A DNA stretch of 38,550 nucleotides. Origin: Candidatus Saccharimonadota bacterium. GTDB lineage: Bacteria > Patescibacteriota > Saccharimonadia > Saccharimonadales > Saccharimonadaceae. The notes under the pieces are model-generated. The model saw only the letters and a program-made list of their open reading frames with translations. It did no database searches and was not told where the DNA came from. The stretch spans positions 1 through 38,550 of the forward strand of contig JAFRJG010000008.1 in assembly GCA_017432365.1 (NCBI GenBank), written 5' to 3'. A program made the translations under genes and the position numbers. Within the stretch, counting starts at the first letter, position 1. Every line of letters begins with the position of its first letter. Below are positions 25,739 to 38,550 of the stretch, piece after piece.

Positions 25739-25742
25739 GCGG

Positions 25743-26084
25743 GAGCTTGAAAGACAATCGCTCGGGCGACCGAGAGGAAAGTCCGGACAGAGTAGAACGA
25801 GATAGTCGCTAACGGCGACCGCCCGTAAGGGTAGGGAAAGTACCACAGAAACAAAACTACCCGCGTCTCTCCGCGGGAAAAGGTGAAAAGAGCGAGGTAA
25901 GAGCTCGTAGCGTCGTGTGGTGACACATGACGGAGGCAAACCCTATCTTCTGCAAGGAGTGCTAAAAGCCCTGGTTCGGGGACGCACGCTTACCGCTGGA
26001 GCGAGAAAGCAATTTCTCGCCTAGATAGATGATTGTCGGTTCGCTCGCAAGAGGGAATTACAAAATCCGGCTTATTGAAAGCTC
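25743..26084 (+). ncRNA. rnpB: RNase P RNA, bacterial type A
   Basis: The catalytic RNA that matures tRNA 5' ends, about 342 nt. Conserved blocks are in order: GAGGAAAGTCCGGACA, ACAGAAA, a GGTGAAA and GTAAGAGCTC block, GGCAAACCC, AGATAGATGATTGTC and the 3' CCGGCTTA. P1 is GAGCTT (25743-25748) with AAGCTC (26079-26084), placed as in E. coli. A strong terminator starts two bases later. The 5' end fits the predicted promoter. Confidence 0.96.
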
Positions 26085-26085
26085 A

Positions 26086-26117
26086 TCAAAAATCTCCGCC
26101 TTGGCGGAGATTTTTGA
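26086..26117 (+). terminator. Bidirectional terminator between rnpB and rpmB
   Basis: A near-perfect palindrome of 15-bp arms around TT: TCAAAAATCTCCGCC and its complement. A-run and T-run flank both sides, so it can stop rnpB (+) and the infC-rpmB operon (minus). Confidence 0.85.
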
Positions 26118-29213: not shown

Positions 29214-29573
29214 GGGGCTGATAAAGCTTAGACGGATTATTAACAGATATCAGGCGTATCGATTGAACACCGTAAGTGTTAAATAAGTGCTAAAGAAAAC
29301 ACTGCTGCAGCGCGTGTAGCTTACATGCCTGCTTATGCCTAAGATTTAATTATAGGCTGGTCTCGAGACAAGATTCCGTAGTCGAGAGATTATCATAACA
29401 CGGGATTAAGGTTTCTTTGTAACGAAGAGAAGCTCGAAAAACTAGTTATGGAGATTTGAAGTTCTGTTCCTCGCAGCTTCAGAGATAATCCGAGAGAAAA
29501 ACGAGGAACTATGTACGTAGAATGATATCCAGTGGTAGTTCGGACCCGGAGGCAGTATCCGGCAGCTCCACCA
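29214..29573 (+). ncRNA. ssrA: Transfer-messenger RNA
   Basis: A 360-nt tmRNA that rescues stalled ribosomes. The acceptor GGGGCTG (29214-29220) pairs with CAGCTCC, followed by ACCA. The tag frame starts at GCT 29289 and ends at TAA 29340-29342, encoding AKENTAAARVAYMPAYA (17 residues), longer than most and ending AYA rather than LAA. The T-stem CCGGA/TCCGG encloses GGCAGTA instead of the usual TTCAANT-type loop, and the D-side TTCGACGG reads TTAGACGG. The flanks TTCGGAC and CAGCTCCACCA match E. coli, so the position of the loop is secure. Confidence 0.93.
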
Positions 29574-29593: not shown

Positions 29594-29619
29594 ATACATC
29601 TCCGAGGGAGATGTATTTT
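29594..29619 (+). terminator. Intrinsic terminator of tmRNA
   Basis: ATACATCTCC, loop GAG, GGAGATGTAT, then TTT. Confidence 0.7.
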
Positions 29620-29784: not shown

Positions 29785-29813
29785 AATATAGCGTATCAAA
29801 ATGCTTGTGTCAA
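29785..29813 (-). promoter_or_regulatory. Consensus sigma-70 promoter of the candidate sRNA
   Basis: On the minus strand, TTGACA (29808-29813), a spacer of exactly 17 bp, and TATATT (29785-29790). Its -35 matches consensus fully, one of only two such in the window besides the rRNA promoter. Confidence 0.68.
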
Positions 29814-29856: not shown

Positions 29857-29955
29857 ACAACAGGGGAGAGGTTGTGAAATGGAGTATATGTAGAAAATAC
29901 AACGGAAAATTTTGAACGAATAACAGGGGAAAAATGGCTGATTGTTGTGAAAAAT
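29857..29955 (+). repeat. Imperfect direct repeats with AACAGGGG
   Basis: Two similar modules, 29857-29880 and 29921-29955, each have AACAGGGGA-A followed by TTGTTGTGAAA-like sequence (shortened in the first). A third AATAACAGGGG lies at 29647-29657. They sit in the AT-rich block upstream of the candidate ncRNA promoter. I see no gene in 29820-29980. Confidence 0.4.
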
Positions 29956-29980
29956 ATATTAAAAAGTTTGAACAAAAGTC

Positions 29981-30009
29981 TTGAACTTTGGGCAGATACG
30001 TGGTATGTT
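29981..30009 (+). promoter_or_regulatory. rRNA-like promoter of the large ncRNA
   Basis: TTGAAC (29981-29986), spacer of 17 bp, TATGTT (30004-30009). The upstream A-rich stretch and the GTCTTGA block resemble the promoter before 16S rRNA at 38340-38368. The predicted start is 30016. Confidence 0.62.
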
Positions 30010-30015
30010 GGAAGA

Positions 30016-30350
30016 GTCGAAAGACAAAATAAAAACGAAAAATAAACCGAGAAAAAAATGAAAGATAAATAACGAAAAGAACTGGCGACGCAAAAAGGTA
30101 ATTTCTAGCCATAAATTACATAGGAATTACCTAATGCTTCGCCAGACGGAGCGCTACGACAACCTGAATTGTTAGCACCTTGAAAGCCATAAGAGAACAA
30201 GGCAGGGAAGCGTAAAGGACGTGCTCCACACTTCGTGGAGCGGTCAAGCGACGAAAGCGGGAAAGGGTTGCGGCTAATAGTTATGTGTTTAGAGCCGGAT
30301 AACCCGCCCGCTCTCTCGTCCATGGAAGTCAAGTGAGATTTTGTCATGGA
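30016..30350 (+). ncRNA. Candidate large structured non-coding RNA, unidentified
   Basis: The predicted transcript begins with a GTC-GAAA-GAC mini-hairpin, then about 55 nt almost free of T. From 30082 it folds densely: CTGGCGA/TCGCCAG (30082-30088/30139-30145) enclosing a 12-bp helix (30096-30107/30121-30132); GCTA-ACAA/TTGT-TAGC (30153-30176); CCTTG/CAAGG; GCTCCAC/GTGGAGC (30223-30229/30235-30241); a nested set GACGA/TCGTC, GCGGG/CCCGC, GGGTT/AACCC, CGGCT/AGCCG across 30250-30320; and CCATG/CATGG (30320-30324/30345-30349). It lacks the signatures of SRP, 6S, RNase P or tmRNA. The 3' end is uncertain as no terminator is seen. Confidence 0.68.
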
Positions 30351-30374
30351 GAGATTCTTGGGGGAAGGGGATTA

Positions 30375-30383
30375 TGATATAAT
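30375..30383 (+). promoter_or_regulatory. Extended -10 promoter of the gene at 30391
   Basis: TGA plus TATAAT; the predicted start is 30390, with the ATG at 30391. This sets the start codon, since an in-frame ATG at 30346 would lie upstream of the promoter and inside the ncRNA. Confidence 0.57.
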
Positions 30384-30390
30384 AAAGCAT

Positions 30391-30765
30391 ATGGTAAAAC
30401 GTATGCGCGGTAACTTTCCGGTGATTCTCAGTATTCTGGCGGCGTTTGGAGCGCTGTTTATGTTGAATTATACGAGTCCGCTCGAAGCGGGGGCTTTAGG
30501 TGTTTTAGTATTTTTTATAATGATTTTTATCTTCTTATACGGTGTGATGTATGAAGTGATAAAGATTATTCAAAGGATACTCGGAGCAGGAGGGAAACAG
30601 AAGGGGGGAGTCGAGAAACGAACGTATATGTATGCGACTGTGGCGGCGTTTGGACCGATTATGTTGTTGATTATAAGGACGTTTTCCGCGGTGAATGTGT
30701 TTACGATTATGTTGACAGCGATTTTTGTCTTTTTGAGCTGTTTTTTGATATATAAACGCGCTTAG
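30391..30765 (+). CDS. Small membrane protein upstream of the coupling-protein-like ATPase
   Basis: 124 aa, not recognised. It has four hydrophobic segments at about residues 9-24, 30-57, 80-98 and 100-120, with a basic stretch between the second and third. The ATG at 30391 is chosen over one at 30346 because of the promoter. It stands first in a row of small genes leading to the VirD4/TraD-like ATPase and may be a membrane partner. Confidence 0.68.
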   Translation: MVKRMRGNFPVILSILAAFGALFMLNYTSPLEAGALGVLVFFIMIFIFLYGVMYEVIKIIQRILGAGGKQKGGVEKRTYMYATVAAFGPIMLLIIRTFSAVNVFTIMLTAIFVFLSCFLIYKRA

Positions 30766-35696: not shown

Positions 35697-38264
35697 ATGC
35701 CTAAAAACGAAAATAACGGTCAAATGAGCGACGAAAACATGAAAGACGTAAGCGGAAAGGGCTTGGAGGTTTCCGGCGCGGAGAATGGCTCTACGGGCGT
35801 TACAGAAGCAATTGTAGATGGTATTGAGAATCGCAACGTCGAGAGTACCATGGAGGAGTACTTCCTCAAGTATTCGATGTCGGTGATTGTGGACCGGGCG
35901 CTGCCGGACGTTAGGGACGGATTAAAGCCGGTAAACCGACGGATTTTATATGCGATGAACAAGAACGGCTGGAAAGCGCCACATGCAACGGTGAAGTCGG
36001 CGAGAATCGTTGGGGAAGTGATGGGTAAGTATCACCCGCACGGAGATTCGTCGATTTATATGGCGATGGTGAACTTGGCGCAGCCGTGGAAAATGCGATA
36101 CACGTTGATTGAGGGGCAGGGGAACTTCGGGTCGATGGACGGAGACGAGGCGGCGGCGTCGAGGTACACTGAGGCGCGAATGGATAAGGTTGGGGCGGAG
36201 CTGTTGACGGATATTGAGAAAGAGACGGTTGACTTTCGGGATAACTTTGACGGAACGGAACAGGAGCCGGTTGTGTTGCCGGCGGCATTGCCGAATATTC
36301 TGCTTAACGGACAGATGGGGATTGCGGTCGGGATGGCGACCAACATTCCGCCACATAATCTTGGGGAATTGGTTGATGCGACAGTGGCGCAGATTGATAA
36401 TCCGGAGATTTCTCTAGAAGAATTGATGAAGCATGTGAAAGGACCGGATTTTCCGACGGGGGCGGAAGTGTATGGAGGGGCAGCGATGCGGTCGGCGTAT
36501 GCGACGGGGAAGGGGTCGGTGACGATTCGGGCGGTGGCGAATATCGAGGAGCGGAAGAACGGTCGGTATAATATCGTGATTACGGAAGTTCCGTACGGTA
36601 TGAGCAAGGAAGGGTTTATTGATAAAGTTCGAGAGTTGGTATTGAGTAAAAAACTTGACCATATCGCGGACGCGAGAGACGAATCAGCGAGAGGGAAGAT
36701 TCGTGTCGTGGTCGAGCTGAAGAAAGATGCGTTTCCAAAGAAGATTTTGAACCAGCTATACAAGCTGACGCCTTTACAGACGACGTTCCATTATAATATG
36801 TTGGCGCTTGTGGACGGGATTCAGCCGCGGATTTTGGGGCTGAAGGAGATTTTAGGGGAGTTTATTAAACATCGGCAGGTGGTTGTGCGAAGGCGGAGCG
36901 AGTATGAACTAAGGAAAGCGAAGGAGCGCGCGCATATTCTCGAGGGGTTAAAGATTGCGCTAGATAATATTGACGAGGTAATTAAAGTAATTCGGGCGAG
37001 CTACGACGACGCAGATAAGCAGTTGATGGAAAAGTTCGGGTTGTCGGAGATTCAGGCGGCGGCGATTTTGCAGATGCAACTGAGAAGGCTCCAGGGATTG
37101 GAACGAGATAAGATTGAGGCGGAGCTGAAGGAGCTACATGATTTGATTAAGCGACTCGAAGAGATTTTGGCAGACGAGATGAAGATTTTAGGGGTGATTA
37201 AGGAAGAGCTGATTGCGCTGAAAGCGAAGTATGGGGACGAACGGAGGAGTAAGATTATCAATCACGAGGTTGGGAAGTTTGCAGAGGAGGAGTTAATTCC
37301 GGAGGAGGAAAGCGTGATTTTATTAACGGCGCAGAACTATATGAAGCGGGTGAGCCAGAACGACTTTCGGAAGCAGAACCGAGGGGGGAAGGGGAAGAAG
37401 GGAATGACGACGAAAGAGGAAGATGTGATTGCACAGATTGTAACGGCGAGTTCGCATGATTATCTATTGTTCTTCACGAGTCAGGGGCGGATTTTTCGGC
37501 TCAAGGCGTATGAAGTGCCACAAGCTTCGCTTTCGGCAAAAGGAACGGCGGCGGTGAACCTGTTGTCGATGCATCCAGAGGAGAAGATTACAGCGATAAT
37601 TAAACAGGGGTCGGGATTGGAAGAAAACGGCTATCTGTTTATGGCCACGAAGAAAGGGACGATAAAAAAGACGCCGATTAAAGATTTCCTGAATATTCGG
37701 TCGAGCGGGTTGGTTGCGATTAAACTTGATGCGGGAGATGAATTGAGATGGGTTCAGGGGACGACAGGGGAGAATGATGTAGTGATTTCTACTTCGGCGG
37801 GACAGGCGATTCGGTTTAACGAGAAAGATGTGCGCGCGATGGGTCGGGCGGCACGAGGGGTGAGAGGGGCACGGTTGCGACCGAAAGATGAGATTGTGGG
37901 GATGGACATTATTACTGACCCGGGACAGAAGATTTTAGTGATTTCTGCGAACGGATATGGGAAGGCGACGCTCGCATCGAACTTCCCGGCGCACAAGCGG
38001 GGTGGAGTGGGGATTCGGGTCGCGGCGGTAACGGCGAAGACGGGTCCGATTGTGGCGGTACATACGCTTGACCCGGCGGCGAAAGAAGTGATTATGATGT
38101 CGAGCAACGGGATTGCGATTCGGGTGGCGGTGAAAGAGATTCCGACGCTCGGGCGAGCGACGCAAGGGGTGCGGATTATGAAGCTCGGTGAGGGGGACGC
38201 AGTGGCGTCGATTGGGATTGTCTTACCAGAAGAAGAGTCGACGGAAGAGAAGATAGGGAAGTAA
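35697..38264 (+). CDS. gyrA: DNA gyrase subunit A
   Basis: Breakage-reunion subunit (855 aa from this ATG). The start at 35697 has GAGGAG 10 nt upstream; an in-frame TTG at 35679 covers that site and is less likely. The N-terminus carries about 40 extra low-complexity residues. The catalytic tyrosine is Y157 (AASRYTEAR). In the quinolone region HPHGDSSIYMAM, S118 equals E. coli Ser83 but M122 stands where E. coli has Asp87. The C-terminal beta-pinwheel has the GyrA box as QNRGGKG (canonical QRRGGKG), confirming gyrase rather than topoisomerase IV. Confidence 0.97.
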   Translation: MPKNENNGQMSDENMKDVSGKGLEVSGAENGSTGVTEAIVDGIENRNVESTMEEYFLKYSMSVIVDRALPDVRDGLKPVNRRILYAMNKNGWKAPHATVKSARIVGEVMGKYHPHGDSSIYMAMVNLAQPWKMRYTLIEGQGNFGSMDGDEAAASRYTEARMDKVGAELLTDIEKETVDFRDNFDGTEQEPVVLPAALPNILLNGQMGIAVGMATNIPPHNLGELVDATVAQIDNPEISLEELMKHVKGPDFPTGAEVYGGAAMRSAYATGKGSVTIRAVANIEERKNGRYNIVITEVPYGMSKEGFIDKVRELVLSKKLDHIADARDESARGKIRVVVELKKDAFPKKILNQLYKLTPLQTTFHYNMLALVDGIQPRILGLKEILGEFIKHRQVVVRRRSEYELRKAKERAHILEGLKIALDNIDEVIKVIRASYDDADKQLMEKFGLSEIQAAAILQMQLRRLQGLERDKIEAELKELHDLIKRLEEILADEMKILGVIKEELIALKAKYGDERRSKIINHEVGKFAEEELIPEEESVILLTAQNYMKRVSQNDFRKQNRGGKGKKGMTTKEEDVIAQIVTASSHDYLLFFTSQGRIFRLKAYEVPQASLSAKGTAAVNLLSMHPEEKITAIIKQGSGLEENGYLFMATKKGTIKKTPIKDFLNIRSSGLVAIKLDAGDELRWVQGTTGENDVVISTSAGQAIRFNEKDVRAMGRAARGVRGARLRPKDEIVGMDIITDPGQKILVISANGYGKATLASNFPAHKRGGVGIRVAAVTAKTGPIVAVHTLDPAAKEVIMMSSNGIAIRVAVKEIPTLGRATQGVRIMKLGEGDAVASIGIVLPEEESTEEKIGK

Positions 38265-38266
38265 AG

Positions 38267-38294
38267 AATTGCGCCGAGGGGACGGCGCAATTTT
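38267..38294 (+). terminator. Intrinsic terminator after gyrA
   Basis: AATTGCGCC (38267-38275), an 8-nt loop, GGCGCAATT (38284-38292), then TT. It starts 3 nt past the gyrA stop. Confidence 0.8.
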
Positions 38295-38339
38295 GACGTA
38301 GAACGTGCTAAAAATGTAAAAAATTGGACGAAAAAAGTC

Positions 38340-38368
38340 TTGACACTCGGGGGGGAGTGGGTTAAGAT
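38340..38368 (+). promoter_or_regulatory. Ribosomal RNA operon promoter
   Basis: TTGACA (38340-38345), a spacer of 17 bp rich in G, and TAAGAT (38363-38368). An A-rich stretch just upstream looks like an UP element. The predicted start is near 38375. Confidence 0.8.
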
Positions 38369-38374
38369 TAAGGG

Positions 38375-38533
38375 AGTCTAGGGAGACAGAGGTGAGTTAT
38401 CGCTTAACGATTCCTTAGAATCAGTAGATTAACAGTTTAGTTGTGCAATTTCGCTATTTTTATAATAGCAATCATCGTCAGTTGATTTTATAGTTGAGTT
38501 TATGCTGAGTTTTTAACTTGGCGTTCAATTTCT
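38375..38533 (+). other. rRNA operon leader
   Basis: About 159 nt between the predicted start and 16S rRNA. It holds GATTC/GAATC around CTTA near 38409-38423 and GCTATT/AATAGC (38453-38458/38464-38469). A TATAAT at 38461-38466 lies in the second hairpin and has no good -35. The leader half of the 16S processing helix must be here, but its partner lies outside the window. Confidence 0.6.
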
Positions 38534-38550
38534 TTAATGGAGAGTTTGAT
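38534..38550 (+). rRNA. rrs: 16S ribosomal RNA, first bases (partial)
   Basis: The window ends in GGAGAGTTTGAT, the universal 5' end of 16S rRNA (AGAGTTTGAT is E. coli position 8 onward). The start is set by that numbering. Confidence 0.9.

Follow-up and report, generated by a model that had tools for sequence, protein, structure and literature searches.

A structured RNA gene matching nothing in Rfam in the bacterial class Saccharimonadia

Gene order and promoters at the locus

The window, a 38,550-nt stretch of DNA, carries a densely folded RNA on the plus strand, in the gap behind tmRNA. The order at the locus is an Mg-chelatase-like gene, tmRNA (on either strand), the RNA, a gene for a small membrane protein, a gene for a 91-aa protein, and a TraG/VirD4-like ATPase gene, which is followed in the window by gyrB and gyrA. 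A cmscan search of the window placed tmRNA at 29214-29573, a gene that ARAGORN missed, and RNase P RNA at 25742-26089. The orientation of the tmRNA gene varies between relatives: in several of them (L012, L014, L016-L019, and L027) it points the opposite way to the RNA, whereas the orientation of the RNA and of the membrane-protein gene is constant. Near the end of tmRNA, the minus strand has a good promoter match, TTGACA-N17-TATATT, and facing it a terminator (29594-29616 and 29785-29813), so that a putative antisense RNA of about 180 nt would fit between them.

The promoter proposed for the RNA in the first-pass annotation was found in this gap as described, with a -35 element TTGAAC at 29981-29986, a 17-bp spacer, and a -10 element TATGTT at 30004-30009 on the plus strand. 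The -10 region and the -35/-10 spacing are kept in relatives. From this promoter, the 5' end of the RNA is predicted at about 30016. The suggested likeness of the promoter surroundings to those of the 16S rRNA promoter was a fair one: a comparable GTCTTGA block is present at the window end, where 38300-38550 comprises the 16S promoter (...AAAAAAGTCTTGACA-N17-TAAGAT...), a leader, and the 16S start GGAGAGTTTGAT. This comparison was made at the window end, the assemblies of the other genus genomes being without 16S. The contig itself stops within the first bases of 16S rRNA (38264-38550), and many contigs of relatives also stop some 8-12 kb beyond the RNA, probably in the same operon.

Further upstream, 120 of 202 loci have an inverted repeat, TGTTGTA-N5-TACAACA, before the RNA; by reading, the window has a degenerate copy at 29943-29962, with no strand assigned. 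The commonest distances from the repeat to the -10 motif are exactly 56 bp (58 of 159 loci) and about 115 bp (38 of 159). The repeat stands at a fixed distance before the promoter (for example, L014:1373-1391), and sometimes occurs in two copies about 59 bp apart. It is likely to be a regulator site or an upstream activation element.

Conserved and covarying structure of the RNA

The RNA strand at 30080-30356 folds with a free energy of -106.9 kcal/mol, compared with -73.7 ± 4.5 kcal/mol for 200 dinucleotide shuffles (z = -7.3), none of which equaled it. Near the predicted RNA start lies a short hairpin, GUC-GAAA-GAC (30016-30025), which almost every genus member has as GUCGAGAUGAC or GUCGAAAGAC; an A-rich, T-poor linker (30026-30081) comes next. 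Six helices follow. P1 (30082-30145; 30082-30087 paired with 30140-30145) encloses P2, and all five of its pairs show compensatory changes, with 97.8% of alignment cells paired. The P2 hairpin (30097-30131), formed by GGUAAUUUCUA and UAGGAAUUACC, has the near-invariant loop GCCAUAAAUUACA and served as the key for motif searches. In five relatives (L023, L045, L113, L116, and L118) about 45 nt sharing a GGGGUAAAAUCUC motif are inserted in this loop. P3 (GCUU/GAGC, 30136-30152) had 98.9% of cells paired and two compensatory pairs, and the sequence GCUCCGC...GAGCGC at this position was found throughout the family. P4 (30155-30214) is a two-part helix with a conserved AG(C/U)AC internal loop, in which 13 of 14 pairs are compensatory. 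P5 (30217-30245), ending in GCGGUCA, and P6 (30254-30316), with an AAUAGUUA loop and CCGGAU, make up an order-wide core. Both hairpins recur in loci of other families.

Because P1 and P3 are interleaved, they would make up a pseudoknot, or else two alternative helices where P1b overlaps P3a; in some species (L005 and L006) the two can be drawn as mutually exclusive. The idea that the linker pairs at long range with the P6 loop was discarded, as own pairs scored no better than swapped ones (12.54 versus 12.44 ± 0.17).

RNAalifold analysis of 69 sequences gave a large covariation term. In a covariance-model alignment of 95 sequences, 96.7% of the cells of P1-P6 were paired, and both sides had changed in 37 of 56 pairs, compared with 9-13 for slid partners and 22.1 ± 1.8 for shuffled ones. 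Since this alignment had been fitted to most of the structure under test, we made an additional test in which substitutions were re-placed on the tree. Against this null, seven pairs of the structure were significant at E < 0.05, and no other pair among 28,203 was. The significant pairs sit in P4, several of them, and in P6; P5 came close to the threshold, and P1, P2, and P3 vary too little to reach significance by themselves. Related genomes thus showed both conservation and covariation beyond phylogeny, the lack of which the first-pass annotation had named as a refutation, and its reading of a densely folded RNA at about 30016-30350 behind a promoter of its own is supported.

Comparison with known RNA families

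The annotation had also stated that signatures of SRP RNA, 6S RNA, RNase P, and tmRNA were absent from the RNA, and our searches agreed. Infernal cmscan with all 4227 Rfam families gave nothing at the gathering score at 30016-30350. Matches to S10-Clostridia and other weak Rfam matches in the gap had E values of 0.55 or worse and were set down to chance; the RNA loci of other families had no Rfam match either. The tmRNA model (RF00023) matches only 29214-29573, and the ends of the RNA are unpaired in the covarying structure, so tmRNA was rejected as an identity. In the open-access literature on RNAs of this lineage, subscription papers lying outside the search, we found no description of such an RNA. 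Judged by sequence comparison, it is a real and new class-wide structured RNA gene that matches nothing in Rfam.

We considered whether the RNA might stand in for a housekeeping RNA that escapes detection here, as a 6S-like regulator of RNA polymerase or as SRP RNA. The 6S model (RF00013) found nothing in 10 Nanosyncoccus genomes, nor at the locus; the small-SRP model RF00169 found nothing in 117 Saccharimonadia genomes, and the large-SRP model RF01854 nothing in the genome of the window. Both RNAs are absent or too divergent for the models. However, the architecture, serial hairpins with a pseudoknot, lacks the long rod with a central bubble and is no SRP domain either; cmscan detected no similarity. 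Moreover, both ffh and ffs have been reported missing from Parcubacteria (PMC4508563), a precedent for the lack of a detectable SRP RNA in the class, so that a missing SRP RNA needs no replacement. Taken together, we regard such a replacement as very improbable.

Distribution across the class

A plain DNA search matched 32 of 60 relatives and virtually none outside the genus, Candidatus Nanosyncoccus. The 23-base P2 motif was found in at least 115 stretches of species genomes; all matches listed belong to Candidatus Saccharibacteria, Candidatus Nanosyncoccus alces (L129) among them. To go further, covariance models were used. Model R1, built without the window sequence, recovered the window at E = 1e-48 and matched 138 of 393 class genomes: 98 in the genus, of 103 sampled, with the remaining 40 spread over 11 further genera of the family. 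The weak R1 matches that were examined lay at the same syntenic place and were accepted for that reason. Because deep family members were misaligned in P1/P2 in the first covariance-model alignments, a core model (R2) was limited to P1b to P5. R2 matched 193 of 393 class genomes in 29 genera, all of this same family, and had no match outside this family in a phylum-wide sample.

In other families of the order, the syntenic position is taken by a shorter homologous RNA with a core of about 150 nt, in which hairpins P5 and P6 are conserved. Its parts are the promoter, a hairpin with an A-rich loop, P5 ending in GCGGUCAGUC, and P6 as GGUAAGCGCU...GAGCGGAUUUACC. Model R3, built from 14 of these loci, matched most other families of the order, with E values down to 1e-39, and gave matches near 1e-10 to 1e-12 in other orders of the class. 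R3 did not match the window itself directly. Two loci of the window's own family tie the long and short forms together, since the R2 and R3 matches overlap on a single RNA in both L227 (3.5e-8 and 1.8e-20) and L230 (2.2e-6 and 3.2e-8). The window RNA is thus linked to the R3 form by these two loci, together with common synteny and common motifs.

Outside the class, weak R3 matches were seen in G453 (E = 5e-8) and, partially, in G701 (E = 6e-7). These are P6-like hairpins (G453:C1:32531-32666, L232; G701:C54:17276-17322, L235) beside proteins that do not correspond, and in L232 the hairpin directly takes the form of a terminator-like stem. They could be distant homologs or a convergent motif.

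The suggestion of a lineage-specific RNA thus held in that the RNA is structured and conserved; it is not confined to close relatives, and R2 and R3 together trace it through the class. We conclude, with a probability of roughly 0.93, that the RNA is ancestral to the class Saccharimonadia and is an independent structured RNA gene with an untranslated core.

A mini-ORF in the linker of Nanosyncoccus RNAs

The earlier statement that no reading frame fits the plus strand proved wrong. A mini-ORF, ATG AAA GAT AAA TAA (MKDK), lies in the linker at 30058-30072 on the plus strand, and other genus members have conserved mini-ORFs there as well. Among 122 unique homologs, 97 have a linker ORF of 4-12 codons that starts with ATG and stops at most 16 nt from P1; dinucleotide shuffles gave ORFs of the same type in 16.3 ± 3.8 of 122 (maximum 26). 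GTG-start versions, noticed by reading in three homologs (L049, L098, and L140), were not counted. The peptides are rich in lysine and mostly end in -KP or -KT, or are of the MKYK/MKDK type, and the distance from stop codon to P1 is fixed in most -KP/-KT types. Differences between nearest neighbors fell 24, 32, and 78 times on codon positions 1, 2, and 3, and 44% of changed codons were synonymous against 21% expected. This codon evidence supports translation of the mini-ORF. Readthrough or frameshifting at its stop codon was rejected by reading: the P2 motif has one open frame, which is out of phase in the window.

The mini-ORF is absent from other genera and families, as well as from some genus members. 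It is therefore a later addition and cannot be the core function of the RNA. This bears on the idea that the RNA acts on ribosomes, in parking, rescue, or sensing, and that the mini-ORF recruits them. Translation of the mini-ORF, its fixed distance to P1 in most -KP/-KT types, the A-rich unstructured linker, and the adjoining tmRNA gene would all suit such a role; nevertheless, the mini-ORF was added at the level of the genus and is lacking in other genera and families, and the tmRNA gene flips its orientation independently. A translation-coupled role for the RNA as a whole is, in our judgment, unlikely.

The downstream membrane-protein gene

In all families examined, the next gene on the same strand encodes a basic protein of 108-148 aa (about 120) with about four hydrophobic helices and a net charge of +5 to +15, for which no Pfam family was matched. 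In the window this gene, TM139, occupies 30391-30765 on the plus strand and belongs to the same family as its counterparts at the other loci, which makes it a candidate partner of the RNA. In other orders, where the rest of the neighborhood has changed, the RNA and the membrane-protein gene stay close: L231 has the order trpS-RNA-TM-pheS, with the gene still following the RNA, and L234 has trpS-RNA-purM-like-TM, with one gene separating the two.

The membrane-protein gene has a -10 element of its own, TATAAT at 30378-30383 on the plus strand, separate from the RNA promoter and 7 nt before the gene start. TTGGGG precedes it at 30358-30363. With a strict pattern, TTGGGG-N15-19-TATAAT was found before the gene in 60 of 121 genus loci, 45 of which have a spacer of 17, and in all 60 the start codon follows 6-7 nt after the -10 element, indicating that the gene is leaderless. 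As the spacer in the window is 14 bp, promoter activity there would have to rely on an extended -10 (TGATATAAT). Between P6 and the next gene, terminator-like hairpins were present in 9 of 15 other-family loci, compared with 14 of 150 shuffled segments; one locus of the window's own family, L185, has one by eye, and none is visible for the window RNA.

These features bear on the possibility that the RNA is a cis-acting leader, a long 5' region that would control the membrane-protein/AAA operon by its folding or by termination, with the mini-ORF as leader peptide. The RNA is always upstream of the membrane-protein gene and on its strand, the mini-ORF resembles a leader peptide that stops just before the pseudoknot, and in L005 and L006 P1 and P3 can be drawn so that each excludes the other. 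On the other hand, the gene has its own conserved promoter and appears leaderless, so that it would probably not be read from a long RNA through a ribosome-binding site; terminator-like hairpins stand between the RNA and this promoter in many families; and L234 has a different next gene. A leader is rather unlikely on this evidence, which favors a stand-alone RNA gene.

Such a stand-alone unit with promoter and terminator would also be expected of a trans-acting regulatory RNA that base-pairs with mRNAs. The most conserved stretches lie within stable helices, however, and no conserved single-stranded seed was seen besides the P2 loop and the A-rich linker; we hold this role to be quite unlikely.

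Discussion

Saccharibacteria live as obligate episymbionts, and their genomes are smaller than about 1 Mb; an RNA that is kept at one locus in nearly all sampled families of such organisms is probably important to them. It gives a handle on the question of what RNAs are used in the Candidate Phyla Radiation when 6S and SRP RNA are not detectable, and its mini-ORF offers an example of a structured RNA acquiring a coding element.

Since the RNA is constantly associated with the gene for a four-helix membrane protein, the two may form a membrane ribonucleoprotein, an idea open to experimental test. We propose this because the pairing of RNA and membrane-protein gene persists and because OLE RNA and OapA provide a precedent; since gene neighborhoods are generally conserved here, adjacency is weak evidence for partnership. 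The RNA would start at about 30016 and end shortly after P6, and would bind the basic four-helix protein encoded just downstream, with the invariant P2 loop, P5, and P6 as putative sites of contact with protein or RNA. In Nanosyncoccus, a ribosome translating the mini-ORF would stop against the P1/P3 pseudoknot, which may couple folding of the RNA to translation. By analogy, we put forward tentatively that the folded RNA binds the downstream protein and works as a membrane ribonucleoprotein in the manner of OLE RNA with OapA. More speculative still is the broader view that the particle is class-wide and arose independently as a second system of the OLE/OapA type, made translation-responsive in Nanosyncoccus by the ORF of 4-12 codons.

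Several known RNAs share features with the one described here. Like tmRNA, it is a stand-alone RNA with an A-rich, mRNA-like stretch, a short ORF with a stop codon, and a pseudoknot; unlike tmRNA, it has no tRNA-like ends, its ORF has its own start codon, and the real tmRNA is separately present at 29214-29573. With 6S RNA (RF00013) it has in common a strong promoter and a stand-alone structured RNA of 150-350 nt, whereas the 6S model gives no match and the covarying structure has no long rod with a central bubble. Leader-peptide and attenuator RNAs likewise place a mini-ORF immediately before competing helices upstream of a gene, but here the downstream gene has a separate promoter with a leaderless start, terminator-like hairpins precede that promoter in many families, and the mini-ORF is not ancestral. 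OLE RNA is an analog only: it has about 600 nt, compared with about 340 or about 150 nt here, the Rfam OLE family does not match the RNA, no Pfam family covers the protein, and the bacterial lineage is a different one. OapA is encoded immediately downstream of ole and is a four-helix protein with basic residues (PMC12265935); in both systems, a large structured RNA stands directly before a gene whose product is a small, basic membrane protein with four helices.
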